64,000 bases of DNA from Coriobacteriales bacterium OH1046 (GCA_004010535.1 RQYE01000004.1:1-64000); one strand, 5' to 3'; positions 282 through 17,180 are shown, counted from the stretch's first letter. Notes: a model not told the origin generated them from the letters alone. A program made the numbers and translations.

Positions 282-1076
282 TTATTCCCAGTCCGTATAG
301 CTCCCGTCGACCGCGCACAGCTCCTCGAAGGAATCGATCTCGTCGATATCGTCGAAGCTGCATGCACGGATGGCGATCCGGTAGTGCTCGCGGCATATGA
401 CGCAGGGCACGTCATCCCAGAAGCGCTGCCTAGCCGCCCCATCCTCGAACACGCGGGGCAGATCGTCGGCGAGCCGACGGCCATCCTCGGCGCTCCAGTA
501 GGAGATCCCGTACATATGATGGCAGCCGTCCCCGCCCTTCTTGAGATCGCAGATGATGCCATCCTCGGTCGTGAAGCACCAGTCATCGGTATGCTCCACG
601 GGAACGCCCAGGTAGTTCGACTGATACTGGTAGCGCGTGATGAGCGCAGGATTCTTGAGGAAGAGATCGGACTCGAATACGTAGGCGTTCTCGAAATGGG
701 TTGCAGCAAGCACAGCCGACGAGATGTTGTTCGTCGAGGCGTAGTCGTGATTGTCGATGAAGCGGATGGCGGGGTATTTCCCGAGCAGCTCGTCGAAACA
801 GTCGGCGAGATAGCCGCGCACGAGGTAGACCTCCTCGATGCCCACGGCGGCAAGGGCGTCGAGGAGCGAGTCGATGATGCGCACGCCATGGACCCTCACC
901 AGCGGTTTGGGGCAGGTCCTCGTGACGGGCATCATCCGCGCCCCGAAGCCGGATGCGAGCATGATAGCGCGCCTGGCGCGATACGGCTCGAGAAGAGCGA
1001 GCTCTGCGGCGGTGGCGGCACCCTCATGCGCCCGCGCGGCCAAGCGGTCGAATTCCGCGCGCGTCAGCTCACCCAT
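282..1076 (-). CDS. LicC-like nucleotidyltransferase
   Basis: This 264-residue protein is a nucleotidyltransferase of the LicC/RmlA-like family, which activates phosphocholine or a similar phospho-alcohol or sugar phosphate with an NTP. After about 35 helical N-terminal residues it shows LASGFGARMMPVTRTCPKPL, a variant of the family's G-x-G-x-R-x(n)-P-K-P nucleotide-binding signature. The later segment FESDLF carries the metal-binding Asp. The start at 1076 is chosen because AGGAGG lies 6-7 bases upstream; the next ATG at 1082 sits directly against that site. It overlaps the upstream gene by 8 bases, so the two are translationally coupled. It is the last gene of the seven-gene surface-polymer operon. 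The substrate is not visible from sequence; CTP and a phospho-amino-alcohol are inferred from the neighbours. Confidence 0.8.
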   Translation of the reverse strand: MGELTRAEFDRLAARAHEGAATAAELALLEPYRARRAIMLASGFGARMMPVTRTCPKPLVRVHGVRIIDSLLDALAAVGIEEVYLVRGYLADCFDELLGKYPAIRFIDNHDYASTNNISSAVLAATHFENAYVFESDLFLKNPALITRYQYQSNYLGVPVEHTDDWCFTTEDGIICDLKKGGDGCHHMYGISYWSAEDGRRLADDLPRVFEDGAARQRFWDDVPCVICREHYRIAIRACSFDDIDEIDSFEELCAVDGSYTDWE

Positions 1077-2652
1077 GCCCATCCTCCTCGTACAGGGGCA
1101 TGGCAGCATCGCAGTAGGTTTGCGCGGCGCGGTACCAGATGTAGAGCCACGCGCCCACCGGGCTGCCCTTCGCCCCCTTGTAGATCGCCCATACATACCA
1201 GTACCAGCCCACCAGCGCAACCGCAGCCAGGCAGTGGCGCTGCTCGGCCGGCGTAGCCGCCCTCCCGTAATAGAGGTCGATGACCTCGAGGGTCTTATCG
1301 GGCGGGTAGTTGGAACCCTGCGCGACGAAGTTACCCAGATCGCACGCGTAATCGCCCATGGCGGAGTATTCCCAGTCGATGAGCCACATATCGTCTCCGC
1401 GCACGAGCAGGTTGGGGCCGTAGAAGTCGTTGTGGCAGAGCACCGGCTCTCCCCCATCGGCGGCAAGGTGGTCCGCAAGCCTGCCCATCCGCTTCGCGAG
1501 CTCGGAGAAGCCGCGCGGCAGCGGGTAGTGCATGGCGCGCAGGATGCCGGCGATCTTCTCGGCCTCGGCTCGGTAGTCGAACGACCACGGGGAGGTCTCG
1601 CCGCTCTCATGCAGGCGCCGCACAAGCGAGAGCGCACGCTGCACGTGATCGCGCTTGCCGTAGTCGAATGGTTCGCAGCCATCGATGAAGCGCGAGAGCT
1701 TCCATCCCTCGGCGGGGTCCTCGTACACGAAGGTCTCGTCGAGGCCCAGCTTGCGGGCGATATCCAAGGCGTGCGCCTCGGCGGCGCGGTTGATGATCTC
1801 ATCGGTTCCCGCCCCGGGGTGGCGGTACACGTACACCGTCCCCTTGCAATCGAAGCGGAACGAGAGGTTGGTGAGGCCCTGCTTGATGGGAACGACATCC
1901 GTGATGTCGCGCCGCTCGCAGCACAATGCGGCGCAGATGTTGTCCAAGATGGAAAGATCGATGTTCTCCACGAAATCGCGGTCGTAGGCGGAGAGATCGT
2001 TGAAGCTCTTGAACTCGTGCACAGCATCTTCGGGAAGCACGCGCGCCTGCAGACGGATCTCATCCGCATGCTGGGCGTAGACCTGGTCCCAGAGCATGGA
2101 TGCGAACAGAGGCTCATGACTCTCGTACTCGAGGATCCTTGCAAACGCCGCACCGTCTTCTTCCGAGAAGAACGCAGGCCCCTGCAAGATGAGGCGGCTC
2201 GGGATCTGCGGGGAGAGCGCGCAGATCGTCCCATCCCCTCCGATCTCGGCCCGAAGCTCCCGTTTGGAACCCGCGCGCTCGACGAGCGTGGCAAGCGAGC
2301 CATCTTCGACACCAACGAAAGGATTCTCGGGAAAGTACTGGTCGGATGAGCACACCCACGCGCCGGGAAGCACATCCCGCGCGATGAGCAGGGAGGCGGC
2401 GCTGCCCGTATCGGCATAGTCGGCATTGACGAGGATATGCGCTCCGAACCCATCCTCGAGGTAGAAGAGCGATTCCTTCATGTAGCCCACCACAACAGAG
2501 ACATCGTCCACGCCCGCCGCGCAAAGCTGGCGGATGAGCCGCTCGATGAGCACCTCGCCGCGCACGGTCAAAAGGGCTTTGGGCAGCTCGTAGGAGAGGG
2601 GGGCCATGCGCGTTCCCGATCCTGCCGCAAGGATGATCGCACGTCGGGCCAT
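1069..2652 (-). CDS. Nucleotidyltransferase-choline kinase fusion (LicC-LicA type)
   Basis: A 527-residue two-domain enzyme. Residues 1-230 are a LicC-like nucleotidyltransferase with LAAGSGTRMAPLSYELPKAL near the N-terminus. Residues 250-520 are a choline/ethanolamine kinase-like phosphotransferase with the catalytic loop CHNDFYGPNLL (Brenner motif HxDxxxxN) and the metal-binding IDWEYS. Together they could phosphorylate an amino alcohol and link it to CMP, as LicA and LicC do for choline in phosphorylcholine-decorating bacteria. The start codon directly follows the stop of the upstream amidohydrolase (TAG then ATG), and the end overlaps the next gene by 8 bases. The domain calls are firm; choline as substrate is inference, because ethanolamine or an unusual amino alcohol would fit equally well. 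Confidence 0.85.
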   Translation of the reverse strand: MARRAIILAAGSGTRMAPLSYELPKALLTVRGEVLIERLIRQLCAAGVDDVSVVVGYMKESLFYLEDGFGAHILVNADYADTGSAASLLIARDVLPGAWVCSSDQYFPENPFVGVEDGSLATLVERAGSKRELRAEIGGDGTICALSPQIPSRLILQGPAFFSEEDGAAFARILEYESHEPLFASMLWDQVYAQHADEIRLQARVLPEDAVHEFKSFNDLSAYDRDFVENIDLSILDNICAALCCERRDITDVVPIKQGLTNLSFRFDCKGTVYVYRHPGAGTDEIINRAAEAHALDIARKLGLDETFVYEDPAEGWKLSRFIDGCEPFDYGKRDHVQRALSLVRRLHESGETSPWSFDYRAEAEKIAGILRAMHYPLPRGFSELAKRMGRLADHLAADGGEPVLCHNDFYGPNLLVRGDDMWLIDWEYSAMGDYACDLGNFVAQGSNYPPDKTLEVIDLYYGRAATPAEQRHCLAAVALVGWYWYVWAIYKGAKGSPVGAWLYIWYRAAQTYCDAAMPLYEEDGHG

Positions 2653-4248: not shown

Positions 4249-5328
4249 TTACAGATGGTAGAGCGCCTTGAGCGCCTCGATACCCGCAGGGATGCCCTCG
4301 AAGAACTCACGGGCAGAAGAAACGCCGGGGTACCATTCCCACACATGATCGATATGCGGCGTCCCGATCCCGGCGAACGCGGCGAAATCCTTGATTATCT
4401 TGAGACCGTAGGGGAAGTCTGCTCGGAAATACCTTGAGGTGAAATCAGGTGCCCACTGCCCGGGCGCGACCTGCCTCATGGGGGAGGTCAAACCCTTGAA
4501 AGCGGGGATATGCGCTATCTTCGCGGTCATTGCCGCAGCATCGGGACTTTCGTAATGCGCTTTGAGCGACAGGACCTCCGACAAATCGATATCGAGCATC
4601 CTCTCAAGAGCGCGGCAGACCCGCTGCAGCTCGTCATCGCAGGCGATCAGCAGCTCAGAGCTGGCATCATCCCAACTCTCGTAGAACAGGATGTTGGCGG
4701 GATACACGATGCCGGGTTCCCACGATGAGAACATCGAACAGAGGCGCGTGGTGTGCAGGATCGGGTTCGACGGGGTGAGCGTCTCGACAAGGTAGTTCGG
4801 CAGGACCCGGACGGGCATCTCGAAGAGCTCGGCGACCACAGAAGCGCGATCCTGCGCGATCCGGGCGGGCACCGATGCAAGCTGGAGCTCCGCTTTGCGT
4901 CCGAGCATGTACACGCTCTTTCCGCGCTCCTTCAAACGCGCCACGCAGTGGACGCGCTGAAGGCCGAGAAGGGCAGCCCCCTTATCGATGCAGGCGCCGA
5001 AGAAGAACTCGGCGGCCGCGCCGGGCATCACGCAGACCGTCTGGCCGGCTTCGATGCAAGCCGCCAGCTTCTCCCCGAGATCGCGGAACATGAACGTCGG
5101 ATAGGTTATGCAGATCATCTCTGCACCGTCGACGGCAACGGCTAGGTCGTCGGTGATGCAGGAAAGCGTTCCCTGCAGGATCAGCCCATCGTCGGTATCG
5201 AACACGTCTATCGTCTTGGAGAATATCTGCGGCTCCGATGCACGCAGACGCACGGAGTGTCCACGTGCAGCGAACTCCGCTGCGATGAGCGTGCCTATAT
5301 TTCCCCCGCCGATGACAGCGATTTCCAT
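4249..5328 (-). CDS. Opine/octopine dehydrogenase-like NAD(P)-binding protein
   Basis: 359 residues. The N-terminus MEIAVIGGGNIGTLIAAEF is a Rossmann fold with the GxGxxG dinucleotide-binding loop. The remainder resembles the NAD/NADP octopine/nopaline dehydrogenase family, including the C-terminal helical domain with conserved His residues in TTRLCSMF and SLKAHYE regions. Known members reductively condense an amino acid with a 2-oxo acid, or run the reverse reaction. The gene sits 20 bases downstream of the nucleotidyltransferase-PLP fusion and 30 bases upstream of the amidohydrolase in the same operon. An amine-linked acid as intermediate in ligand synthesis is a possible role, but this is inference. 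Ketopantoate-reductase-like enzymes share the fold, so the exact reaction is open. Confidence 0.65.
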   Translation of the reverse strand: MEIAVIGGGNIGTLIAAEFAARGHSVRLRASEPQIFSKTIDVFDTDDGLILQGTLSCITDDLAVAVDGAEMICITYPTFMFRDLGEKLAACIEAGQTVCVMPGAAAEFFFGACIDKGAALLGLQRVHCVARLKERGKSVYMLGRKAELQLASVPARIAQDRASVVAELFEMPVRVLPNYLVETLTPSNPILHTTRLCSMFSSWEPGIVYPANILFYESWDDASSELLIACDDELQRVCRALERMLDIDLSEVLSLKAHYESPDAAAMTAKIAHIPAFKGLTSPMRQVAPGQWAPDFTSRYFRADFPYGLKIIKDFAAFAGIGTPHIDHVWEWYPGVSSAREFFEGIPAGIEALKALYHL

Positions 5329-5348: not shown

Positions 5349-7166
5349 CTATCGATACAGCACAGATCTCATGGCCCTGACCAAGCAGGCGTTATCATCC
5401 GCGCCGCGCACGGCCACGCGCACGAACTGCCGCCCGTCGCGTTCGATCTTCCCGGAGAGGTCCTTGATGAGGATCCGGTGATCCGCCAGGAGCCGCCTCG
5501 TGAGCTCGCGCGCGCCCACGGGCCCCGTGAGCTCGACCATGAGGTAGTTGGCCTGCGAGGGAAGCGGGCGCACCCCCTCGATCCGCGCAAGGCCATCGGC
5601 CAATGCGGTGCGGGCCGCGCGCAGCCCCACGAGGGCGTCTCGGTAATCGCCTAGATACTTCTCGGCGATCTGGAGGAAGAACTCGCCGAAAGAGTTGATG
5701 TTCCAGATCGGCACCGCGCGCTTGATCGCGGCGATGAGCATGATATCGGCGGAGGCGGCGACGCCCAGGCGCACGCCCGGCACACCGTAGGACTTGGAAA
5801 TGCTCTTCACCGCCACGAGATGCGGGTAGCGCCCGAGCAGTTCGTCATCGAGGAAGGTATTGGCGGGCTCGTCTGAGAAATCGGAGAACGACTCGTCGTA
5901 TACGAGGCGGATGCCCCGCCCTTCGCACCACGCAGCCAGACGCGCGACCTCGGCCTTGGGCATGTAGCAGCCCGAGGGATTGTCGGGATTGATGAGCACG
6001 AGGGCCTCGAGATCCTTGTCGGCGAAGAAGGCCATGAGCTCGTCGGCGGTGTAGGAGAAGTCCTCATGCGCGGGGACGAAGACGACCGAGCGCTCCTCAG
6101 GATAGCGGTTGGGATACTCCTCGAAGGTGGGGCGGATGAAGCCGACCTTGCCCCCGAAACCCTCGAGAAGGGCCTTGATGAGCTCCGCAGCGCCGTTGCC
6201 CACCACGATGCGGTCCTGAGCCACGCCGAAGGTCTTGGCAGCCAGCAGCGCGTTCACGCGCATGCCCGAGGGATACTGGGCGACCAGCGTATCGAAGCTC
6301 GCACGCATCTCGTCGAGCAGGCGCCGGGGCGGAAAGTAGGGGTTCACGAGATAGCAGAAGTCGGTGAGGCGCGGATAGCGCCAATAGCCGCCATAGCGGG
6401 ACTCGAGCAGGCCGAGCCGCTCGTCATCGTCGGGCGAGAACATGGACTCGGCGATATCGAGATCCTGGATGTCGTCGATCTCGTACCAGAGCCGGCCATC
6501 GAGGCGCTTGGCCTTGAGCTCGGAATCGTCGAGGTGCATGATGACGCGGAGCACCTGCTCGTAGTACTCGTTGTTGCCGAGCGCCTTGACGTATGCCTCG
6601 AGGAAGGGCACGTAGTGGGTACGCGAGAACTCCTTCGAGAACTTGTAGATGTTCACGGTCTTGTAGTACGAGGAGATGTCTTGGAACCTGAACTTCCTGC
6701 CGGGGACGAAGGCGACGATATCGTCGTTCTCGTCCACCTTGACGACGGTGCCGTCCATCCAGCTCTCGTACGCGTCCACGAGGGCGAGCGTAGGGCGGGG
6801 ATCGTCGACGAGATCGCGCAAGATCCCCTCCTCGAAGATGATGTCGCTCTCGAGCAGCAGGGTGTCGTCCTCCTCGAGATCGCCCATGGCAAGCGAGAGC
6901 GAGTAGATGTTGTTGGTCTTGTCGTAGAACGGGTTGAGGCGCCATTCGATGGGCGTCGCGACGTCGAGCGTGGAGACATACGCGCGCAGGCCCTCCGACC
7001 GGTAGCCGTCGACGATGACGATGCGCGCGAGGCCGAGCTCGTCGAGCTGCGCGAGGGCGCGTTCGATGAGGGTTGCGCCGCACACCTCGATCATGCACTT
7101 GGTGTTGTCGGCGGTGAGCGCCTTGAGGCGCTTGCCCATGCCCGCCGCGAGGATGATAGCCTGCAT
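5349..7166 (-). CDS. Nucleotidyltransferase-PLP enzyme fusion (FrbH-like architecture)
   Basis: A 605-residue fusion. Residues 1-245 are a LicC-like cytidylyltransferase (LAAGMGKRLKALTADNTKCM signature; LLESDIIF metal site). Residues 255-605 are a fold-type I PLP enzyme of the HisC/CobD group, with INPDNPSG, YDESFSDF and the Schiff-base lysine in SISKSYGVPGVRLG. The same order of domains is known in FrbH, which attaches CMP to an amino-phosphonate and decarboxylates it. CobD-like enzymes decarboxylate phospho-threonine or phospho-serine. A chain that produces a CMP-activated amino-alkyl ligand would therefore fit. No PEP mutase is in the window, so phosphonate chemistry is not shown, and a plain aminotransferase is also possible. 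It lies 12 bases after the TagB-like gene. Confidence 0.75.
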   Translation of the reverse strand: MQAIILAAGMGKRLKALTADNTKCMIEVCGATLIERALAQLDELGLARIVIVDGYRSEGLRAYVSTLDVATPIEWRLNPFYDKTNNIYSLSLAMGDLEEDDTLLLESDIIFEEGILRDLVDDPRPTLALVDAYESWMDGTVVKVDENDDIVAFVPGRKFRFQDISSYYKTVNIYKFSKEFSRTHYVPFLEAYVKALGNNEYYEQVLRVIMHLDDSELKAKRLDGRLWYEIDDIQDLDIAESMFSPDDDERLGLLESRYGGYWRYPRLTDFCYLVNPYFPPRRLLDEMRASFDTLVAQYPSGMRVNALLAAKTFGVAQDRIVVGNGAAELIKALLEGFGGKVGFIRPTFEEYPNRYPEERSVVFVPAHEDFSYTADELMAFFADKDLEALVLINPDNPSGCYMPKAEVARLAAWCEGRGIRLVYDESFSDFSDEPANTFLDDELLGRYPHLVAVKSISKSYGVPGVRLGVAASADIMLIAAIKRAVPIWNINSFGEFFLQIAEKYLGDYRDALVGLRAARTALADGLARIEGVRPLPSQANYLMVELTGPVGARELTRRLLADHRILIKDLSGKIERDGRQFVRVAVRGADDNACLVRAMRSVLYR

Positions 7167-7178
7167 CTGTCCTGCCCC

Positions 7179-8426
7179 CTATTCGGATGGATTCACCAGC
7201 TCGTCGTGCTTTCCTATGAGATAGTCGACCGTGCGCGCAACGCTCTCGCCTTGGAAGGCCCATGTCTGCCGACGGGCACGCGCCCTGCCCTCTGCCAGCG
7301 CGGTGTCTGCGATGACCTCGTCGATGACCGCCCGCATCCTCGGGAATTGGTCCCTCGAGAGTTCGGGGCCGAGCGCAGCGTAGATGGCAGACGTCCAGAG
7401 CGGCCCGTCGAGCCACGCGGAATCGTAAACCGCGTTGTCGAGGGTGCTCTGCGTGGAGATGACCGGCTTGTCGAAGATGAGGGCATAGTCGAGAACGACG
7501 CCCGAGAAGTCGCTGATCATGATGTCGGCGCGATGGAGGACCTCGAAGTTGTCGTTGTCGAAATTCCAGCTCAGGGACTCGCCGTCGGGGTATGCGGCCA
7601 TGAGGGAATCGAGCAGCTTCTTCTCTGCGGTCATGGACTGCGGATGCGGGCGGATGACGATATCGTATCCGGTGGCGAGCAGGGCGTCGATGACCTCCTT
7701 CCCATAGACCGAGAGGATGGCGCTCTCGCCCCACGAGGGGGCGAGCAGGACGCAGGGATGCTCGTTGCGGACCGGCGCGAGGGTCTCGGCGCGCTCGGCC
7801 ATGATGTCGAGGTAGGTGCAGCCCACGATCTCGAGCTCCTTGGGAGGGAGTTTGCGGAGCTCCTCGAGCGTGCGGATCTCATCGGCCTGGAAATCGCATG
7901 AGAGCAGGACCGCATCGTAGAAATCGAGGCCGAACATGCGATAGCCGGCTGCGGTCCCCAATGCATGGAGGATATGCACGTAGCAGTCCACGTTCTTGGA
8001 ACGCTTCCACTGGAGCACGTCGAGGCCGGGCGTGGTCGAGAGCACCACGTTCGCGCTCATCATGTTGAGGCGGGCGAAGGCCTTGTTTCCCTCGCCGATG
8101 AACTCGCACACCACATGCTCGTAGTCCTCATCGAGCGCAGGGTCGTCGGGCGAAGCCGTCCAATAGCGGAGCTCCACGCCGCGCCGCTCGAACTCGTCGC
8201 AGATGGGCTTGAAGATGTTCCAGTAGCGTTTGTGGTCTGCGAAGACCACGAACGGGAGCTTCCCCTCGTCGACCAGCCTGGCATTGCTTCCGGACAGCAT
8301 GACGCGGATGCTGATGAGCATCTTGCGCAGGAAGAAATACCCCGTGGTCACCAAACCGATGAGCAGTGTGAAGAGCATGCTGCCCGTACCGGGGTCGATG
8401 TAGCGGGAAAGGTGGGCGGATATCAT
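7179..8426 (-). CDS. CDP-glycerol glycerophosphotransferase family protein (TagB/TagF-like)
   Basis: 415 residues. It starts with an N-terminal hydrophobic segment (about residues 15-40), so it is probably membrane-associated on the inner face. The C-terminal half has the family marks IRPHPQS and SDFSGVVLDYALIFDKPVI, as in TagB/TagF enzymes that transfer glycerol phosphate from CDP-glycerol to a teichoic-acid primer or chain. A LicD-like or other polyol-phosphate specificity cannot be excluded. A ribosome site (GGTGAG) precedes ATG 8426. The gene begins 10 bases after the YidC/LtaS-like fusion and ends 12 bases before the nucleotidyltransferase-PLP fusion, which places it in the surface-polymer operon. 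Confidence 0.85.
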   Translation of the reverse strand: MISAHLSRYIDPGTGSMLFTLLIGLVTTGYFFLRKMLISIRVMLSGSNARLVDEGKLPFVVFADHKRYWNIFKPICDEFERRGVELRYWTASPDDPALDEDYEHVVCEFIGEGNKAFARLNMMSANVVLSTTPGLDVLQWKRSKNVDCYVHILHALGTAAGYRMFGLDFYDAVLLSCDFQADEIRTLEELRKLPPKELEIVGCTYLDIMAERAETLAPVRNEHPCVLLAPSWGESAILSVYGKEVIDALLATGYDIVIRPHPQSMTAEKKLLDSLMAAYPDGESLSWNFDNDNFEVLHRADIMISDFSGVVLDYALIFDKPVISTQSTLDNAVYDSAWLDGPLWTSAIYAALGPELSRDQFPRMRAVIDEVIADTALAEGRARARRQTWAFQGESVARTVDYLIGKHDELVNPSE

Positions 8427-8436
8427 GGGTGCTCAC

Positions 8437-11235
8437 CTACTCCGTGGGACCTTGGACGAGCGTCCAGTTATCGGGATCGAAGATGTCATCATGCACGCTG
8501 TACCAGTAGCCATCACCGGTCTCGAACACCGTGCCGTGGTGGTTGGTATCGACGTTGTGATGCCACGAGGTGGTGACGAGCTGATCGTGGGCATGCTTCT
8601 CCTCGTCGGTCATAGGCTTGCCCGTATAGGGGTTCACCGGATCCTCGATGATGCCCTCCAGGGCGATGAGGGGCGTATCGGCATTGGTCATGAACTCGTT
8701 CGAGACCTCGAAGCCGCGCGCATCGAAGTCCTTGACCATGAGCAGCGGGTTGAAACTGTTGACGTTCATGCGGATGAAATTCCAGATATCCTGGTCTCCA
8801 TCGATGAGGAGATCTTGGAATTGGGCGTATGGATAGCCGTGGTCCGAGACGATGATGATGCGCGTGTTGTCGTAGGCTCCTCCCGCGCGCAGGTAATCGA
8901 ACCACCTCCCCAGTTGGATGAACGTGGCCATGCTGGCGTGGTAGCTGGCCAGATAGGTGGGGTTGCTCATGTCGATGGTGCGGCCATCGACCGTGAAGCG
9001 GCCGTAATCCTCGAGGCCCTCGTTGTCGACGAACTCGGAAAACCCGTACTCGGGCAGTTGGAGCATCTGCGGCGAGTGCGTCGTATCGTTGTGCAGGAGC
9101 ACGAAGTTGTCGCTGCCGCCGCTCTCGATCGAGGTCAACTCGTCCATCAGGGCCAGCACCGCGTAGTTGTCGATGAAATCGCTGTTGGAGGCGTGGCTGA
9201 CGAGCGTCGAGTAGTAGTTGCCCCGATCGTAGACGGTCGTCTGGAGCACGACGGGTACGGCCTTGAAGAGGCTGTAGAACACGAAGCTGCGCGTGAGGTT
9301 CTCCGCAGAGCGGTTGCGCCCGTTCTCGAGGAAGTGGGCGCTGTAGGCTCCTTCGACCCGATAGGTGGAGAAGCCGTCGATGGCATCGAACATGCTGAAA
9401 TCGCGCGTTCCGTACGTGTAGGAGACGAGCGGCGGATCGAACTGCACCGCCGAGAAACCCGCTTCGGTGAAGAGCGTGGGCATGACCTTGATGGCCTCGT
9501 TGTGCTTCTCGGAAAGCAGCTCGGTATCGCGCCTGTTCATCTCGGTGGGCGTGTACTCGTAGCCGCCGTAGAGCGGGGGGCCTCCATAGACGGTGCAGGA
9601 ACCGAAGGAGAGCGTGTTGGGATAGTAGGTGAATCCGTCGAACTGCTCTCGGAGCTCGGGCCGCTCGGCCAGGATATAGGGCATATACGTGCCCATGGCA
9701 CGGTCCATGAAGAGCACCACCACGTTCCTCCCCTCCTGCGAGAGGTGGATGAGGGGGACGATGCTGCCATCGGCATCGAAGAGCGCATCTGCTGCGCCGC
9801 CATCGCCTGCGGAAGCGCCCTGGGCGATCTGGACGCCATGCGCCTCCATCTCGGCGGTTGCGGCTTGGATGGAGACGAGGTTGGGTACCGCCGCAGCTGC
9901 GGCCACGATGATGAGGATGACGAGCGCCGCATTGACGAGATCGCGCTTTCTGCGCCACAGGACGAGCATGACCGCAGCGAGCACGACGAGCACGGTGAGG
10001 TTCAGGAGCTTCTCCCCGAGCGGGTAGGAAGGATAGGCCTCGAATACCAGATCCTTGGTGATGGTGCCGAGATGCTGCCCGAAGAAGAGGAAGTCGACGA
10101 GGCAGATGCCCGCGAGGAGCCAGTAGGCGCACGCGATGAGGCGGCGGGTCTTGAGGTTGCCGAGGTAGAAGAAGATGCCGCCCCAGAAGATCACGAGACC
10201 GCCGATAATGGAGCTCGTGGTGACGATATGGCGCACGGGACTCGCCGCCGCATACTCGTCGATGAACTCCTTGGGCGAGGCGCCGATGAGCGCAGACGGT
10301 ATGAGCATGCCGAGGATGACGGTGATGAGCGCCGCAGCGAGCAGAAACGAACCCGTCGGAGAGGGCCCCTCGGATTGCTCCGCACCATCTTCCCCCCTAC
10401 GGGCATCCAGGACAGGCGGGAAGAAGAGGAAGGCCTCCACCAGCACCGCGAGCGCGCATGCGCCCAGCAGGCGGCGCGGCGAGGCGAGACGGCCGGACTG
10501 GAGCAGGTACACCCCGAGGGCCGCGAAGAAGACCTGCACGAGCAGGGCGAATACCCTGCGCGGATGCTTGAGCAGCTTGAAGAAGACGTTCTTGGCCAGC
10601 GAGAAGACCTGATTGCAGGTCCAATAGAAGACGAGGCCCGCCGGGCTCTGGTAGAGCAGCACGAGGAAGGCGGCCGCCAAGCCGTACGCTTGGATCTTGT
10701 CGCGCAGGGGCAGGCCCTTGGTATAGATGTATGTCGAGAAGCAATTGATGAGCGTCATGGCAATGGGCAGGATATTGAGCGCGAAGCCGCCCACCGTGAC
10801 CAGCTGGTCGGGTTGCGAGAGGTCGTTGATGAACAGGAAGCGCGTCCCCTCGAGATCGGCCAAATTGGAGAGATAGCTGTAGGCCGCCATGAAGAAGGGG
10901 ATCTGGAGCACAAGCGACAGCGAGCTCCTGAGCGCCTGGACGGGCTTGTAGCCCTGCTGGCGATAGTAGGTCGAGAGCATCATGTACTGCTCGTCGCCCT
11001 TGAAGTGCGCCTTGATGTGATCGACCCAGCACGCCATGGAGGCCTGCTTGCCGCGCTCCTCTTCCTGGATGAGATCGGCGCGCCGGTAGAGCGGGAGCGC
11101 CAGGAAGTTCACAGCCAAGCTCACACCGATGATGGAAAAGCCCGGATTCACGAAGAAGCGGTTGAGCACCGCGTAGACCAGCTCGATGAGGTAGATGATC
11201 GGCGCGACGATGACATTGTACGGAATCGTGAGCAT
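8437..11235 (-). CDS. YidC/Oxa1-like domain fused to an LtaS-like sulfatase-fold synthase
   Basis: A 932-residue membrane protein. Residues 1-255 match the YidC/Oxa1 insertase family: several membrane helices, a charged cytoplasmic hairpin (KAHFKGDEQYMMLSTYYRQQ) and helices ending in SPAGLVFYWTCNQ, the usual YidC end pattern. More helices follow to about residue 580. The remaining 350 residues look like an extracellular alkaline-phosphatase/sulfatase-fold domain: VVVLFMDRAMG (first metal site), a Ser/Cys/Thr cluster GSCTVYGG where LtaS has its nucleophile Thr, and VSDHGYPY (second metal site). LtaS-type domains polymerise glycerol phosphate or transfer phospho-groups to surface glycans. The start ATG 11235 opens the first helix; only a weak GCAGG site lies upstream. 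It is the first gene of the operon, so the domain may make or decorate the polymer served by the downstream genes. Confidence 0.8.
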   Translation of the reverse strand: MLTIPYNVIVAPIIYLIELVYAVLNRFFVNPGFSIIGVSLAVNFLALPLYRRADLIQEEERGKQASMACWVDHIKAHFKGDEQYMMLSTYYRQQGYKPVQALRSSLSLVLQIPFFMAAYSYLSNLADLEGTRFLFINDLSQPDQLVTVGGFALNILPIAMTLINCFSTYIYTKGLPLRDKIQAYGLAAAFLVLLYQSPAGLVFYWTCNQVFSLAKNVFFKLLKHPRRVFALLVQVFFAALGVYLLQSGRLASPRRLLGACALAVLVEAFLFFPPVLDARRGEDGAEQSEGPSPTGSFLLAAALITVILGMLIPSALIGASPKEFIDEYAAASPVRHIVTTSSIIGGLVIFWGGIFFYLGNLKTRRLIACAYWLLAGICLVDFLFFGQHLGTITKDLVFEAYPSYPLGEKLLNLTVLVVLAAVMLVLWRRKRDLVNAALVILIIVAAAAAVPNLVSIQAATAEMEAHGVQIAQGASAGDGGAADALFDADGSIVPLIHLSQEGRNVVVLFMDRAMGTYMPYILAERPELREQFDGFTYYPNTLSFGSCTVYGGPPLYGGYEYTPTEMNRRDTELLSEKHNEAIKVMPTLFTEAGFSAVQFDPPLVSYTYGTRDFSMFDAIDGFSTYRVEGAYSAHFLENGRNRSAENLTRSFVFYSLFKAVPVVLQTTVYDRGNYYSTLVSHASNSDFIDNYAVLALMDELTSIESGGSDNFVLLHNDTTHSPQMLQLPEYGFSEFVDNEGLEDYGRFTVDGRTIDMSNPTYLASYHASMATFIQLGRWFDYLRAGGAYDNTRIIIVSDHGYPYAQFQDLLIDGDQDIWNFIRMNVNSFNPLLMVKDFDARGFEVSNEFMTNADTPLIALEGIIEDPVNPYTGKPMTDEEKHAHDQLVTTSWHHNVDTNHHGTVFETGDGYWYSVHDDIFDPDNWTLVQGPTE

Positions 11236-11278
11236 AAGCGTATAACCTGCAGGGATGCGAGTAGGCACAGACCATATG

Positions 11279-11284
11279 AGTATA
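11279..11284 (-). promoter_or_regulatory. Possible -10 box for the surface-polymer operon
   Basis: On the minus strand TATACT lies 44 bases upstream of the YidC/LtaS-like start. I find no good -35 box at 16-18 bases, so the promoter is tentative. The 134 bases between this start and the GH13-GH77 stop also hold a 6-bp hairpin (319-324 paired with 331-336 of 11xxx) without a T-tract. Confidence 0.3.
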
Positions 11285-11369
11285 GCCCAAACGCATGCCC
11301 GGGCGCTCGGGCGAAAGCCCCTCCCTATCTGGAGGGTCCCCGGCCCCGCACGAATCGCCCGTAGGCTGC

Positions 11370-14300
11370 CTAGCGGTGCATGTCGACGAGCGTGGCGAGG
11401 CGATCGCCCGCAGCCATGACCGCTTGGGCATCGGCGCGCCAGCTCCAGTTGCCCTCGGCGACACCCGGCACGTTCATGCGGCTCTCGGCACCGAGGAGCA
11501 GCACATCCTGGAGCGGCAGGATGGCGACATCGGCTTCGGCGCCCATCACGCGTTCCGTGAGCTCGACGGCGAGCTTCCGCGCCTCCTTGGCAGATGCGGC
11601 GCGATCCTCGCACCACGCGAGGATCGTCGTCGTGTCGTGCGTTCCCGTGAACGCGACGGTATCCGGCGCAGGATGGAAGCCCTCGAGCACGTCCTCGTCC
11701 GAGAACTGCACCACGCTCATGCCCGGTGCCCCCACCTCGGCGAGCAGGGCGCGCACGGCGGGCGTGACGGTGCCGAGATCCTCCGCCAAAAGCGGCAGCG
11801 GACCGAAGCGATCGTATGCGGCCGTGAAGAGCTTCTTGCCCGGTCCGAAGCGCCAGGTGCCCTCCAAGGCGGTCTTGCCGGCAGGTATGCCGTAGTAGGA
11901 CGAGAAGCCCACGAAATGGTCGAGGCGCACGTAATCATAGAGCGCGAACATGCGGCCGAAGCGCTCGAGCCACCACGCATAGCCGCCTTTCTCGAGCACG
12001 TCCCAACGGAAGGTGGGGTTGCCCCAGAGTTGGCCTTGGGGGCCGAGCGGATCGGGAGGTGCGCCCGCGAGGACCGCCGGATCGAAGATGTCGGGGTGAG
12101 CCCAGGCATCGGCGGAATCGGCCGCCACGTACATGGGCATGTCGCCGATGATCGCGATACCGCGCTCGGCGGCGTAGGCTCGGATACGCCCCCACGCCCT
12201 ATCGAAGAGGAGCTGATCTGCCATGTGGCGGCGCACGCGCAGCCTCAAGGGCCGCTCGTCGAGGAGGGCGCGGTCGAAGCTGCGGTACCGCTCGGGCCAC
12301 TCCCACCACGGATCCTCCCCCATCGCATCCTTGAGGGCGCGGAAGAGGGCGTACGGCTCGAGCCATGAGGCGTTATCATCCACGAAGCGGCAGCCGCGCG
12401 CGATGTCCTTCTCGGCCAAGCGGCAGTCCCGCTCGGCACGGGGCCCCACAAGCGCGGGATCGCCCGCAAAGGCCGAGAGACCCGCGTACGGCGATCCGTA
12501 GGCATCGGTGGGGTTCACCGGCAGGATCTGCCAGTAGCGCACCCCCGCCGCATGCAGCCAATCGAGGAAGCGCATCGCCGGCTCGCCGAGCGTGCCGGGG
12601 CGTCCGGCGTTGGGCACGCTCGTGATGTGGGCCAGCACGCCCGCACCCGCCTCGAGCGGCTTCTGCAGGCGTATCTGCTCATGGAAGTGCAGCACGCTCG
12701 ATCCCAAGGGCCAGAGGGAGACCGTGCAGGAGCCATCCTCCACCACGACCGCGCGACCGGAGATGACATCGCTCGCCTGGGGTGCCGCCATGGGCAGCCT
12801 CACCTCGTGGATCTTCTCGAGGCTCGCGTTCACGAGCACGCATACGCATCCCGTGTCGCTGCGGCGCCAGAACCCGAAGACGTCATCGTTTGCCGCAAAG
12901 GGCTCGCAGCTGCCGTCGACCAGCACGGGAAGGGCCTTGCGCAGGCCGATGGCATTGCGGTAGATGGTCGGGCAGTACGGGTCGGGCGCATCCCAGGGCA
13001 TGGACGCACGGTTATAGGGATCGGTATAGCCCTCGAGGCCCAGCTCGTCGCCATAGTAGATGCAGGGGACGCCGGGAAGCGACATCTGCAGGAGCGCCGC
13101 CAGCCAAAGCCGTGAGCGCGCAAGGCCCAGCTGCTCCTCGGAGAGCCGGTAGCCCGCGCACTGCTTGTCGGTGAGCTTGCATTGGTCGGGAGCCCCTCCC
13201 AAGATGGTGAAGAGGCGCATGCGGTCGTGGGTGCCGAGCACGTTCAGGCAATTGGCCAACGCCTCGGGCGGATAGTTCTCGATCAGCTGCTCGAGGATAT
13301 CGGCAAGCTCGGCAGCCGTGGTCTCGCCGGTAAGGTAGCGGAGGATGCCCGCGCGCAGCGGATAGTTCATCACGCCGTCGAGCTCTGCGCCCTCGAAGTA
13401 CCGGCGCAGCTCGTTGTAGGCGACCTTATGGGTCGCATCCTCCCAAACCTCGCCGATGACGAGGGCATCGTCACGCTCGGCGAGCGCGGCGGCCTTGAGT
13501 TCGGCGATGAAGGAATCGGGCAGCTCGTCGGCCACATCGAGGCGCCATCCGCGCGCCCCGGCGCGCAGCCACCTTCTCACGATGCCGTTCTCGCCGCAGA
13601 TGAACGAGCGGTAATCGGGGTTGTCCTCGTCGATGTCGGGCAGATCGGCCACGCCCCACCAGCTGCTGTAGGAGCCGTCCTCCCCTATCTTGTACCACCG
13701 GTGATAGGGGGATTCGGAGCTTTGGGCGGCACCCACGTCGGGATAGTTGTCGAAGGCGTTGAAGTAGCGCGAATCGCGCCCAGTATGGTTGAAGACGCCA
13801 TCCAAGATGATGGAGATGCCATGCTCCCCGGCATCCTTGCAGAGGGCGCGGAACGACTCCTCATCGCCCAGCAGCGGATCGATGCGCGTATAGTCGGCCG
13901 TGTCATAGCGATGGTTGCTCGCTGCCTCGAAGATCGGATTCAGGTAGATCGCCGTGATGCCCAGGGCCTCGAGATAGCCGAGCTTCTCGCGGATGCCCTC
14001 GAGCGTGCCGCCGTAGAAATCCCAGGCAGCGATGGCGCCGTCATCGGCGCGCTCGTAGGAGACCGGCGCATCCCAATCCTCGACGAGGCGCCGCTGCGGC
14101 CCGGTGCGCGGCGTCGCAAGCGTCTTGGCCCGCTCGCGCCAGTCGCTCCCCCGGAAGAAGCGGTCGGGGAAGATCTGGTAGGCCACGCCCCCCCGGTACC
14201 ATGCAGGTTGGGTCGCGCGCGGAACATATACCGTGATCTGGAACGAGGGCGGCTCGCCGTAATGGAAGGTCCCCTCCCCCACCGCGTGCTCCTCGCGCGC

Positions 14301-14585
14301 CCCGTAGCTCCAGACGGAGCCGTCTGCGGCCTGGATTTTGAACGCATACCAGATGATGCCGGTACCTTCGGGCGTGTAATCGGCCGAGAAACGCGTGGCA
14401 TCGCCCTGCTCGGTGGCCTCCATGGGAATGAGGATCTCTCCATTGCCCTCGATCCACAGGCGCAGCTCGGCACCGAGCGGATCCTCGTCCCAGACATCGA
14501 TGGCCAGCTTGACGGTGCCGCCCAACTGGACGGCACCGAAGGGGCTTCTGTAGTCGGAATCCGACGTTATATGACATGCACGCAA
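11370..14585 (-). CDS. Alpha-amylase family (GH13) - 4-alpha-glucanotransferase (GH77) fusion
   Basis: 1071 residues. Residues 1-110 are an N-terminal beta-sandwich starting DYRSPFGAV, as in neopullulanase-like enzymes. Residues 120-580 form a GH13 catalytic domain with WRLDVADE (nucleophile Asp), VIGEVWED (acid/base Glu) and LGTHDRMR (third Asp). Residues 600-1071 form a MalQ-type GH77 domain with VRLDHFVGF, LLAEDLGT and TGTHDTTT. One chain can thus hydrolyse and transfer alpha-1,4-glucans. The start is a TTG at 14585: AGAGG lies about 5 bases upstream and no in-frame ATG fits before DYRSPFGAV. It begins 4 bases after the glgA stop, so it is coupled to the glycogen operon and is its last gene. 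Confidence 0.88.
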   Translation of the reverse strand: MRACHITSDSDYRSPFGAVQLGGTVKLAIDVWDEDPLGAELRLWIEGNGEILIPMEATEQGDATRFSADYTPEGTGIIWYAFKIQAADGSVWSYGAREEHAVGEGTFHYGEPPSFQITVYVPRATQPAWYRGGVAYQIFPDRFFRGSDWRERAKTLATPRTGPQRRLVEDWDAPVSYERADDGAIAAWDFYGGTLEGIREKLGYLEALGITAIYLNPIFEAASNHRYDTADYTRIDPLLGDEESFRALCKDAGEHGISIILDGVFNHTGRDSRYFNAFDNYPDVGAAQSSESPYHRWYKIGEDGSYSSWWGVADLPDIDEDNPDYRSFICGENGIVRRWLRAGARGWRLDVADELPDSFIAELKAAALAERDDALVIGEVWEDATHKVAYNELRRYFEGAELDGVMNYPLRAGILRYLTGETTAAELADILEQLIENYPPEALANCLNVLGTHDRMRLFTILGGAPDQCKLTDKQCAGYRLSEEQLGLARSRLWLAALLQMSLPGVPCIYYGDELGLEGYTDPYNRASMPWDAPDPYCPTIYRNAIGLRKALPVLVDGSCEPFAANDDVFGFWRRSDTGCVCVLVNASLEKIHEVRLPMAAPQASDVISGRAVVVEDGSCTVSLWPLGSSVLHFHEQIRLQKPLEAGAGVLAHITSVPNAGRPGTLGEPAMRFLDWLHAAGVRYWQILPVNPTDAYGSPYAGLSAFAGDPALVGPRAERDCRLAEKDIARGCRFVDDNASWLEPYALFRALKDAMGEDPWWEWPERYRSFDRALLDERPLRLRVRRHMADQLLFDRAWGRIRAYAAERGIAIIGDMPMYVAADSADAWAHPDIFDPAVLAGAPPDPLGPQGQLWGNPTFRWDVLEKGGYAWWLERFGRMFALYDYVRLDHFVGFSSYYGIPAGKTALEGTWRFGPGKKLFTAAYDRFGPLPLLAEDLGTVTPAVRALLAEVGAPGMSVVQFSDEDVLEGFHPAPDTVAFTGTHDTTTILAWCEDRAASAKEARKLAVELTERVMGAEADVAILPLQDVLLLGAESRMNVPGVAEGNWSWRADAQAVMAAGDRLATLVDMHR

Positions 14586-14589
14586 AAAA

Positions 14590-16077
14590 CTACCTCTTCT
14601 TCCAGGGGATGATCTCGGGATGCAGCGCGTGGAAGAGCTCGAGGTATTCCACCGCCGCACGATCCCACGAGAAATCGGTCGTCATGCCGCGCCTTTGAAG
14701 GACACGCCAAGCTTCCTTGTTATCGCGGTAGAGCCAGCAGGCGCCGAGCAGGCAGTCCGCCATCTCGTCTGCATTCATGTTCGCGAACGAGAAGCCCGTG
14801 CCCTCGCCCGTGAATTGGTTGTAGGGCTGGACCGAGTCGCGCAGGCCGCCCGTCTCGCGGACCACGGGCAGCGTCCCGTAGCGCATGGCGATCATCTGGG
14901 AGAGCCCGCAGGGTTCGAATTCGGAGGGCATGAGCAGGATGTCTCCGCCTGCGTACATGCGGTGGGAGAGCGCGTTGTCGAAGGTGATGCGCGCGCACAT
15001 CTGGCCGGGATAGCAGCTCTCGAAGTAGCGGAAGGCCTCCTCCTGATCCGCGTCGCCCGTGCCGAGCACGACCATCTGGGCCCCCTCGGACATGATGCGG
15101 CCCATGGCATAGCGCACGAGACCCAGGCCCTTCTGGTTGGTGAGACGTCCGATCATGACGATGAGCGGGGCGTCCTCATCCTGAACAAGGCCGCATTCCT
15201 CCTGGAGCGCGCGCTTGGCCTCCTTCTTGCCATCGATGCTATCCGCCCCGTAGTGGAAGGCGATGAGCGGGTCGGTCTCGGGATTCCAGATGCCCTGGTC
15301 GATCCCGTTCAGGATCCCGGAGAGGATGGATGCGCGGCGGCGGAACATGTAATCGAGCCCTTCGCCGAAGAACGGCATCTGAAGCTCGACGGCGTAGCTC
15401 GGGCTCACGGTGGTGAGCAGGTCGGAATAGCAGAGCGCGCCCTTCATGAAATTGATGGAGCGATCATCGCAGCGCAGCTGGTCGGCCGCAGCGGGGATAT
15501 GGCCCACGCCGAGGACATCGTCGAGCAGCGAATCGCCGAACTGGCCTTGGAATTTGACATTGTGCACCGTGAAGACGCACTTCACATTGTTGCAGGCATC
15601 GCTCTCACGGTAGAACTCGCGCAGGAACACCGGCACGAGCGCCGTCTGCCAGTCGTTGCACTGCACGACATCGCACTGCAGCTCGGGGAAGAGCTCGATG
15701 GCCTCGCAGATGGCTTTGGAGAAGAATGCGAAGCGCTCGCCGTCATCGAAATAGCCGTAGAGGCTGTCACGCTTGAAGTAGTCCTCGTTGTCGAGGAAGT
15801 AGAAGTCGACCCCATCGTGCACGAGATGCTCGACGCCGCAGTAGACGCTGCGCCATGCAAGCGGCACGTACATCTCGCCGAGATGCTCCATGCGGTCCCG
15901 GTGCTCCTGGGGGATCGTAGCGTATTTGGGCATGATCACCGCGCATTTCGCGCCCTCGGCGATGAGCGCCTGCGGGAGCGAGCCCGCGACATCGCCCAGA
16001 CCCCCCGTTTTGGCAAAGGGCACGGCCTCCGAGGTTGCGAGCAGCACCCGGAGCTTTCTTCTCGTTGCGTGCGTCAT
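14590..16077 (-). CDS. glgA: Glycogen synthase GlgA
   Basis: A 495-residue GT5 glycogen synthase that uses ADP-glucose to extend alpha-1,4-glucan. It has the N-terminal KTGGLGDVAGSLP ADP-glucose-binding loop, the GT-B fold linker and the C-terminal EFEPCGLSQMIAMRYG motif with the conserved E-x7-E type region. ATG 16077 is preferred over in-frame codons further upstream because the protein then begins right before the first beta strand (RKLRVLLATSEAVPF) and only 8 bases follow the glgD stop. It is transcribed with glgB, glgP, glgC, glgD and the GH13-GH77 gene. Confidence 0.95.
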   Translation of the reverse strand: MTHATRRKLRVLLATSEAVPFAKTGGLGDVAGSLPQALIAEGAKCAVIMPKYATIPQEHRDRMEHLGEMYVPLAWRSVYCGVEHLVHDGVDFYFLDNEDYFKRDSLYGYFDDGERFAFFSKAICEAIELFPELQCDVVQCNDWQTALVPVFLREFYRESDACNNVKCVFTVHNVKFQGQFGDSLLDDVLGVGHIPAAADQLRCDDRSINFMKGALCYSDLLTTVSPSYAVELQMPFFGEGLDYMFRRRASILSGILNGIDQGIWNPETDPLIAFHYGADSIDGKKEAKRALQEECGLVQDEDAPLIVMIGRLTNQKGLGLVRYAMGRIMSEGAQMVVLGTGDADQEEAFRYFESCYPGQMCARITFDNALSHRMYAGGDILLMPSEFEPCGLSQMIAMRYGTLPVVRETGGLRDSVQPYNQFTGEGTGFSFANMNADEMADCLLGACWLYRDNKEAWRVLQRRGMTTDFSWDRAAVEYLELFHALHPEIIPWKKR

Positions 16078-16085
16078 GGCACCCC

Positions 16086-17180
16086 CTAGTTGCTGCCCTT
16101 TTCCTTGACCAGCACTTCCTCGGGAGTGCCTCTGAACTCGGTGCCGGCAGGTATGAGGTTGTTCCGGTCGATGATGGCGTTCTCGACGCGCGCGCCGCTC
16201 TTGATGATGCACCCCTGCAGGACAATGGAGTTGCGCACCGTGGCACCGCTCTCGACGATGACGTTGCGACCGAGAACCGAATCGGTGACCTGGCCGAAGA
16301 TGCGGCAGCCTGCGGAGACGAGGCTGTTGCCCACCCGGCTGCCCGCCTCGTACTTGGCCGGCGAGGTGTCATGCGCCTTGGTCTTGATCTCGCGACCCTC
16401 GGGGAAGAGCTCGGCGGCCACAGCGGGATCGAGCAGATCCATGTTGCCCGCGAAGTAGCTCTTCAGGTTGAAGACCGGCCTGACATAGCCCTCGAAGAAG
16501 AGCGGACGCACGTCGACCCGACCGAAATCGCCGGACATGGCCTCGAAGAGATCGAGGTAGTCGTTGGCAGCGTACCAATCGAGCATGTCGAGCACAAGGC
16601 TCCTCGAGACGACGAAGCAGTCGAGGAACTCGGTATCGCCGTATGAGACCCCCTGATAGATGCCTGCAACGCGCTCGCCGTCGATCTTGAGGCCCACGAT
16701 GTCCTCATCGGTGCCCGCAGAGGGGCGCGCAAGCACGGTGATATCGGCACCCGAGCTGCAATGGGTATCGATGAGCTGCGCCATGTCGAAGTTATACACG
16801 AAGTTCGCTGCGGAGAAGACCACGTAATCGGACGAGGAGCGCTCGAAGTAGACCTTGTTCGCGATGAGATCGCGCAACAGGAAGCGCGCGCCGGCGCGCG
16901 ATGTGCCGAACGCCGAGCCCGGCAGGAAGAACAAGCCGCCGTTCTTGCGGTCGAGGCTCCACTCCTTGCCCGAGCCCACGTGGTCGATGATGGAGCGGTA
17001 GTTGAACGGCATGACCATGCCGATGGTGCGGATACCGCAATTGACCATGTTGGACAGCGGGAAGTCGACGAGACGGTACCTGCCGAGGTAGGGCAGGGAG
17101 GCGGCAGGGCGGCTCGCACAGAGGACGCCCGGATGCTTGATGGAATAGTTGCAGGTGATAAGACCGATGACGTTAGGCAT
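16086..17180 (-). CDS. glgD: Glucose-1-phosphate adenylyltransferase regulatory subunit GlgD
   Basis: A 364-residue GlgD-type partner of GlgC. It keeps the nucleotidyltransferase fold and the C-terminal left-handed beta-helix of hexapeptide repeats (SVLGRNVIVESGATVRNSIV region). The N-terminal glycine-rich catalytic loop is degenerate: it reads GVLCASRPAASLPYLGRYRL where GlgC has LAGGQGSRL. In Firmicutes the GlgC-GlgD pair gives higher activity than GlgC alone; the same role is inferred here. It starts 2 bases after the glgC stop, consistent with co-translation of the two subunits. Confidence 0.92.
   Translation of the reverse strand: MPNVIGLITCNYSIKHPGVLCASRPAASLPYLGRYRLVDFPLSNMVNCGIRTIGMVMPFNYRSIIDHVGSGKEWSLDRKNGGLFFLPGSAFGTSRAGARFLLRDLIANKVYFERSSSDYVVFSAANFVYNFDMAQLIDTHCSSGADITVLARPSAGTDEDIVGLKIDGERVAGIYQGVSYGDTEFLDCFVVSRSLVLDMLDWYAANDYLDLFEAMSGDFGRVDVRPLFFEGYVRPVFNLKSYFAGNMDLLDPAVAAELFPEGREIKTKAHDTSPAKYEAGSRVGNSLVSAGCRIFGQVTDSVLGRNVIVESGATVRNSIVLQGCIIKSGARVENAIIDRNNLIPAGTEFRGTPEEVLVKEKGSN

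Follow-up and report, generated by a model that had tools for sequence, protein, structure and literature searches.

Results

The window, by which we mean the whole 64,000-nucleotide stretch of Coriobacteriales bacterium OH1046 that was analyzed (RQYE01000004.1:1-64000), carries on its minus strand an open reading frame at 8437..11235, with its ATG at 11235 and a stop codon ending at 8437. The 932-aa product is a fusion of a YidC-fold module to a phosphotransferase of the alkaline phosphatase superfamily, an architecture that we call type A. The preliminary description of this DNA had placed the frame correctly and had left the strand unstated. A chance overlap with the plus-strand frame 8425-11364 was dismissed, as the conserved domains sit in the minus frame. 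Pfam assigns residues 32-219 to 60KD_IMP (YidC) at 72.9 bits (E 4e-20; cut-off 35) and residues 504-803, weakly, to Sulfatase at 21.9 bits (E 1.2e-4), below the cut-off of 25. Ten nucleotides downstream lies the constant partner of the fusion, the gene of a TagF-like CDP-alcohol phosphotransferase (PF04464; 7179..8426, minus strand). The minus strand continues with a LicC-like cytidylyltransferase fused to a CobD/HisC-like PLP enzyme (5349..7166), an octopine/nopaline dehydrogenase-like protein (4249..5328) and an amidohydrolase (PF07969; 2653..4218) of the same operon, a LicC-LicA fusion of an NTP transferase and a choline/ethanolamine-kinase-like domain (1069..2652), and a second LicC-like NTP transferase (282..1070), which is the C-terminal part of the mechanical frame 282-2453 and has an estimated start. 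The order of the octopine dehydrogenase-like and amidohydrolase genes is conserved in two other loci (L060 and L061). On the other side of the fusion, judged by eye only, an alpha-amylase-type enzyme is joined to a 4-alpha-glucanotransferase-type enzyme in a 1,096-aa frame (11370-14660, minus strand), adjoined by a glycogen-synthase-like frame (14590-16212).

A membrane insertase domain joined to an extracytoplasmic enzyme invites the suspicion that two genes were run together in assembly, the explanation that the preliminary description itself had named as fatal to its reading. A scan of species genomes returned at least 549 relatives, from which 75 loci were kept, with 107 fusion frames counted, part of them cut by contig ends. 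The relatives are distributed over Coriobacteriia, Clostridia (Lachnospiraceae and Oscillospiraceae), Negativicutes and Spirochaetes (Treponema), and the hundreds of them include cultured isolates, among these Schwartzia succinivorans DSM 10502 (Negativicutes), Butyrivibrio sp. MB2005 and Lachnospiraceae XBD2001. Since the fusion recurs in a single frame at 75 loci from four groups of bacteria, isolates included, at 38-89% identity, an assembly join can be excluded as its source. In the open-access literature we found no account of this fusion or of a related system, and the passages of PMC10234575 on the teichoic-acid genes of Eggerthella do not mention the module.

The N-terminal module (residues 1-222; 10570..11235, minus strand) is better conserved than any other part of the chain, with a mean pairwise identity of 59%, against 43% for the outer catalytic domain and 33% for the transmembrane (TM) bundle between them. 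The structural matches of a whole-chain model fell mostly on the outer domain, and residues 1-222 were therefore modeled alone with AlphaFold (59 sequences, pLDDT 82). The model matches E. coli YidC (6al2) with a Z score of 17.8 over 199 residues and Bacillus halodurans YidC (3wo7) with 17.4, while unrelated folds score 7.1 or less; the predicted structure has the conserved five-TM core with the cytoplasmic C1 hairpin that defines the YidC/Oxa1 insertases. The preliminary assignment of the N terminus to YidC/Oxa1 holds for the fold. In the genome scan for YidC-like proteins a fourth match (C14:290201, 19 bits) was rejected as false, the 554-aa frame reading as a permease.

A further mark of an insertase is the positively charged residue of the hydrophilic groove (R366 in E. 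coli, R72 in B. halodurans), and at this position, by alignment, the window protein has an asparagine, N43 (11107..11109, minus strand). Among 122 type A sequences the residue is Asn in 110, Ser in 10 and Gln in 2, and Arg in none; the stand-alone YidCs that were aligned have Arg (5) or Lys (1), and a second class of fusion, type B, described below, has Lys in 19 of 19. NCBIfam's yidC_oxa1_cterm model (TIGR03592) scores the window protein at 77.6 bits and type B at 72.5 and 83.1 bits, all under the curated cut-off of 84.3. The YidC parts of types A and B form separate supported clades (100/100 and 100/99) on long stems, and the long branches keep the tree from relating the two.

One reading of such a protein is that of a specialized YidC paralogue, a dedicated insertase or chaperone for the insertion or assembly of the transferase fused to it, or of the partner protein. 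The fold is clearly that of YidC, with its C1 hairpin conserved, but the groove arginine is missing, as is a free basic C-terminal tail, and most genomes hold a stand-alone YidC as well. The last was present in 12 of the 14 genomes checked, which rules out the fusion as a replacement of the cell's insertase; the remaining two are metagenome-assembled genomes in which no intact copy was seen, the stand-alone gene being in fragments or absent. Moreover, type B has its outer enzymes encoded separately, and two relatives (L049 and L188) are without an intact YidC part, so that the outer enzyme can evidently do without a fused insertase. Nor would self-insertion give the YidC part a reason to co-occur with a TagF-like gene, as it does (see below). 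Hence, we regard an insertase role as very improbable, and the earlier suggestion that the YidC part does something other than insertion gains support from the loss of the groove arginine, the missing tail and the separate YidC alike.

The loss of the arginine in all type A sequences is also what would be expected of an inert platform that merely holds the TagF-like enzyme beneath the outer transferase, the lipid being moved by another protein or by spontaneous scrambling. This scaffold or docking role is the chief rival of the reading that we prefer, in which the YidC fold carries lipid, and the lost groove charge of the window type could equally mean a dead groove; the structural model (pLDDT ~80) bears on the fold and not on the binding of lipid. 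Against it, docking alone would not need a full five-TM core, yet the whole core, TMs included, is what is best conserved, and type B retains a charged groove residue throughout. We consider it rather unlikely, and return to it with the evidence on gene partnership.

Beyond the core, hydropathy gives a C-in end to the YidC part, a variable and removable two-TM linker (residues 223-289, missing in some relatives), a predicted five-TM bundle (residues 290-470; 9826..10368, minus strand) and then the catalytic domain, which the odd number of preceding TMs puts outside. This extracytoplasmic phosphotransferase domain (residues 496-932; 8440..9750, minus strand) comprises 437 residues of alkaline phosphatase fold; the preliminary description had the fold right and the length, given as the last 350 residues, too short. 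Residues D511, T548, H720, D798 and H799 are unchanged in all 98 sequences compared. From family knowledge we take them to be the metal ligands, with T548 the presumed nucleophile, and the domain thus has the fold, metal ligands and Thr nucleophile by which the superfamily is recognized. The motifs MDRAMG and SDHGYPY had been picked out as metal sites, and fittingly D511 lies in the first and D798 and H799 in the second.

The same description had called the enzyme an LtaS-like polymer synthase, a label that is not specifically supported. Structural matches with Z scores of 18-21 include sulfatases, phosphonate monoester hydrolases, YejM, EptC, LtaP and MCR-1, so that LtaP/LtaS are among many equal matches and the domain is as near to the others as to them. 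Alignment by hhalign to the stand-alone LtaS-like protein of the same genome covered only 27 columns, around the DH motif. The structural kinship to LtaS and LtaP nonetheless speaks for another possibility, a teichoic-acid-like polymerization in which a short poly(alcohol-phosphate), made on a lipid by the TagF-like enzyme, is exported by the YidC part and then lengthened or attached by the outer enzyme; the protein would then be a true polymer synthase or exporter, as the preliminary description had suggested. The partner protein lends this some weight. Its PF04464 domain, the mark of the TagF type, scores 30.8 bits, above the curated cut-off of 22.1, and its profile matches Cps3D (1.3e-7) and TarL (0.0024). 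The protein has an N-terminal membrane hairpin with the motif YIDPGTGSM, and its RPHPQ and DFS residues are invariant over 28 relatives. The observation that several outer enzymes may be served by one TagF-like protein is better suited to decoration than to chain growth, however, and the donor genes discussed below bear on the same question.

The partnership with the TagF-like gene is close. It lies within 200 bp of the fusion and on the same strand in 61 of the 75 loci, and of 10 cases in which the locus lacks it, 9 have it at another place in the genome. In the arrangement of the window, 15 of 383 genomes of the class have the TagF-like gene, and the fusion with its YidC part is found in exactly these 15 (hypergeometric 3e-27, a figure that ignores kinship between genomes). 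In four genomes (G010, G120, G337 and G338) the outer enzyme has a relative with no detectable intact YidC core, and the TagF-like gene of this type is absent from them also; one of these copies (G337) ends at a contig end, with any YidC part beyond reach, and the contig of a further genome (G287) shows the outer part of the fusion only. By this distribution, it is the TagF-like gene that the YidC part accompanies, and not the outer enzyme as such. This tracking is also a point in favor of the scaffold, as is the direct YidC-TagF fusion of type B. In five loci (L049, L188, L035, L046 and L185) the N terminus of the outer-enzyme relative is a remnant of the first YidC helices; their genomes also carry a type B YidC-TagF protein and may use it in trans.

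What is new here is that the same modules occur in three arrangements, of which the window fusion is one. The preliminary description had missed the TagF-like partner, the second and the triple fusion, and the genes for CDP-choline and CDP-amino-alcohol donors. In the first, that of the window, a YidC-phosphotransferase is accompanied by a separate TagF-like CDP-alcohol phosphotransferase; in the second, type B, a YidC-TagF fusion is accompanied by a separate phosphotransferase; and in the third all three are joined in one chain, as in a paralogue in this very genome (C13:211354-215511), whose 1,386 residues read YidC core, TagF-like domain, TM bundle, outer phosphotransferase. Relatives occur in 79 of the 383 genomes, mostly as a YidC-TagF protein of ~650 aa with an outer enzyme of ~720 aa encoded separately next to it; the full chain of ~1360-1400 aa is found in eight genomes, this one included. 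In one genome (G003, locus L033) the triple gene, a window-type fusion, its TagF partner and donor genes are all consecutive. By the Rosetta-stone argument, fusion of this kind marks the three modules as parts of a single functional unit. Because the TagF domain of the triple chain lies between the YidC core and the next TM set, it is predicted from hydropathy to be cytosolic, and fusion order and predicted topology agree with a loader inside, a membrane part and a transferase outside. The Y[IV]DP hairpin motif that starts the separate TagF-like proteins (in the window from 8426 downwards) also stands ahead of the TM bundle of the triple fusion (P0003, residues ~690-725), and the hairpin may be a shared element of membrane contact.

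Further evidence comes from neighboring copies of the fusion, in which the YidC part was more alike than the catalytic part in 27 of 27 pairs, with means of 88% vs 66% identity and extremes of 99% vs 56% (L088 and L107). Gene conversion could account for such a pattern, but as the sole cause it is ruled out by the low fourfold-site identity of some pairs. In the pairs of L077, L088, L101 and L107 this identity is 0.78-0.91, and in others it is 0.36-0.6, near saturation, though the proteins are still much alike; thus, conversion and selection at the protein level both act. If several outer enzymes that drift apart share one partner on the inside, this would explain why the YidC parts stay alike while the catalytic parts do not. 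The near-identical YidC parts fit a shared docking surface as well, and so can be claimed for the scaffold. One locus (L196) has a single YidC-TagF gene followed by three outer enzymes, and since one such chain can thus adjoin up to three separate enzymes, direct channeling is not always possible. At another (L079, JAFWQC010000004.1) up to eight YidC-phosphotransferase frames, some of them fragments, surround one TagF-like gene in an apparently expanding tandem array of near-identical YidC parts and diverging outer domains.

As to the substrate, activation genes (LicC-LicA, LicC-CobD/HisC or PEP-mutase-type) lie within ~8 kb in 35 of the 75 loci. The LicC-CobD/HisC gene, which probably makes a CDP-amino-alcohol (the exact alcohol is a guess), adjoins the TagF-like gene in 7 and recurs beside it and the fusion in L060, L061, L092, L096, L105, L123 and L124; a LicB-like permease is found in 10 loci, and a PEP mutase together with a phosphonopyruvate-decarboxylase-like (Ppd-like) gene in 6. 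These neighbors point to CDP-choline, CDP-amino-alcohols and CMP-activated aminophosphonates; activation of aminophosphonates of the PntC type has been described (PMC6697681). In L068 (3711-5714) and L064 (3713-5716) the gene directly behind the TagF-like gene encodes a LicC-like NTP transferase, a second cytidylyltransferase-like domain and a PEP mutase in one chain, a phosphonate-activating fusion with two nucleotidyltransferase domains. No recognized CDP-alcohol gene lies within ~8 kb in the other 40 loci, and the headgroup there may therefore differ, for example glycerol from genes elsewhere. For polymerization the donors are a difficulty: many of these genes lead to choline, ethanolamine or aminophosphonate, and some of these products have no second hydroxyl and cannot polymerize. 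We hold polymerization to be improbable, and, in general, the insertase and polymer-export roles fit less well than transport.

Discussion

What has been computed is the YidC fold, the loss of the groove arginine, the catalytic residues, the constant TagF-like partner, the three arrangements and the donor-making neighbors. We would give an even chance to the reading that the fusion supplies the membrane part and the outer enzyme of a three-part system for transfer of phospho-headgroups across the membrane, with the YidC module linking the cytosolic and the extracytoplasmic transferase and probably flipping a lipid-linked donor between them. In the cytosol, the TagF-like enzyme would use a CDP-activated alcohol to load a headgroup phosphate onto a membrane lipid carrier, the candidate alcohols being choline, ethanolamine or another amino-alcohol; for some relatives the candidate is an aminophosphonate. 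The YidC-fold module would contact this enzyme and carry the polar lipid head over the bilayer by way of its groove, a step proposed by analogy. Outside, to judge by the reactions of its superfamily, the catalytic domain would take the phospho-headgroup onto its catalytic Thr and pass it to a surface glycan or polymer. There is precedent for the middle step, in that E. coli YidC and further members of the Oxa1 family scramble lipids in vitro after reconstitution, by way of the insertion groove (PMC10491306), a finding repeated in review (PMC7618853), although such scrambling is non-specific and may be incidental. There is precedent for the layout also, in that three-component systems of a cytosolic transferase, a flippase and an outer transferase add sugars to teichoic acids and other glycans (PMC7389260, PMC8035078, PMC11127046).

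The broader proposal is that there exists, apart from the insertases, a YidC-fold family that is a dedicated translocator of lipid-linked phospho-headgroups, its groove recruited as a flippase in a widespread three-part machine for surface decoration; we hold this tentatively, at close to but short of even chances. Each part falls into a known superfamily, and in its layout as a whole the system is like three-component systems already described; the chance that the YidC-fold translocator represents a component of a new kind is substantial. If the proposal is true, lipid transport is a YidC-fold protein's own job, tied by fusion and strict co-inheritance to phosphotransferases inside and outside the cell, and the role of lipid transport in the YidC family becomes directly testable in the fusion system. 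It would, moreover, link cytosolic synthesis of CDP-choline and CDP-amino-alcohols to outer transferases of the alkaline phosphatase superfamily. The system is carried by abundant gut and rumen bacteria, in which surface phospho-decorations likely matter for host recognition and phage binding. In practice, profile searches score hundreds of such genes as YidC, and they are easily mistaken for insertases.

Comparison with known systems can be made part by part. The module shares with bacterial YidC/Oxa1/Alb3 proteins the five-TM core, the C1 hairpin, the high Z scores and a Pfam 60KD_IMP match well above cut-off; unlike them, it has N, S or Q (type A) or K (type B) in place of the groove arginine and lacks the free basic tail, is fused to and co-inherited with phosphotransferases, and forms clades of its own. 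The partner resembles TagF, TarL and Cps3D in its PF04464 and profile matches, and differs from them in being a single short domain of ~415 aa with the YIDPGTGSM hairpin, or in standing fused behind a YidC core (type B). The outer half, like LtaS/LtaP, EptA/EptC/MCR-1 and YejM/PbgA (and, by the literature, PptA and GacH), has five TMs ahead of an outer catalytic domain and an Asp/Thr/His/Asp/His site, with Z scores of ~18-20; unlike them, the window protein adds a fused YidC core and a TagF partner, its Pfam Sulfatase match is under cut-off, and it has no close sequence kinship with the genome's own LtaS-like protein. With the Lic-1 pathway (LicABCD) the system has in common the LicA-, LicB- and LicC-type genes beside the module in part of the loci, and the TagF-like and YidC-phosphotransferase pair stands in the place where LicD would act. 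A 2023 survey found no species with both Lic-1 and PptA, the phosphocholine transferase of the alkaline phosphatase superfamily (PMC10434233). The nearest parallel in layout, three-component transmembrane glycosylation, likewise has a loader inside, a carrier in the membrane and a transferase outside. It is defined by a cytosolic GT, a small flippase of the GtrA/GtcA type and a GT-C enzyme, and the module shares none of these three protein families, so that the layout alone is alike; where that system moves sugars, the module would move phospho-headgroups, and its membrane part has the YidC fold and is fused to its partners.
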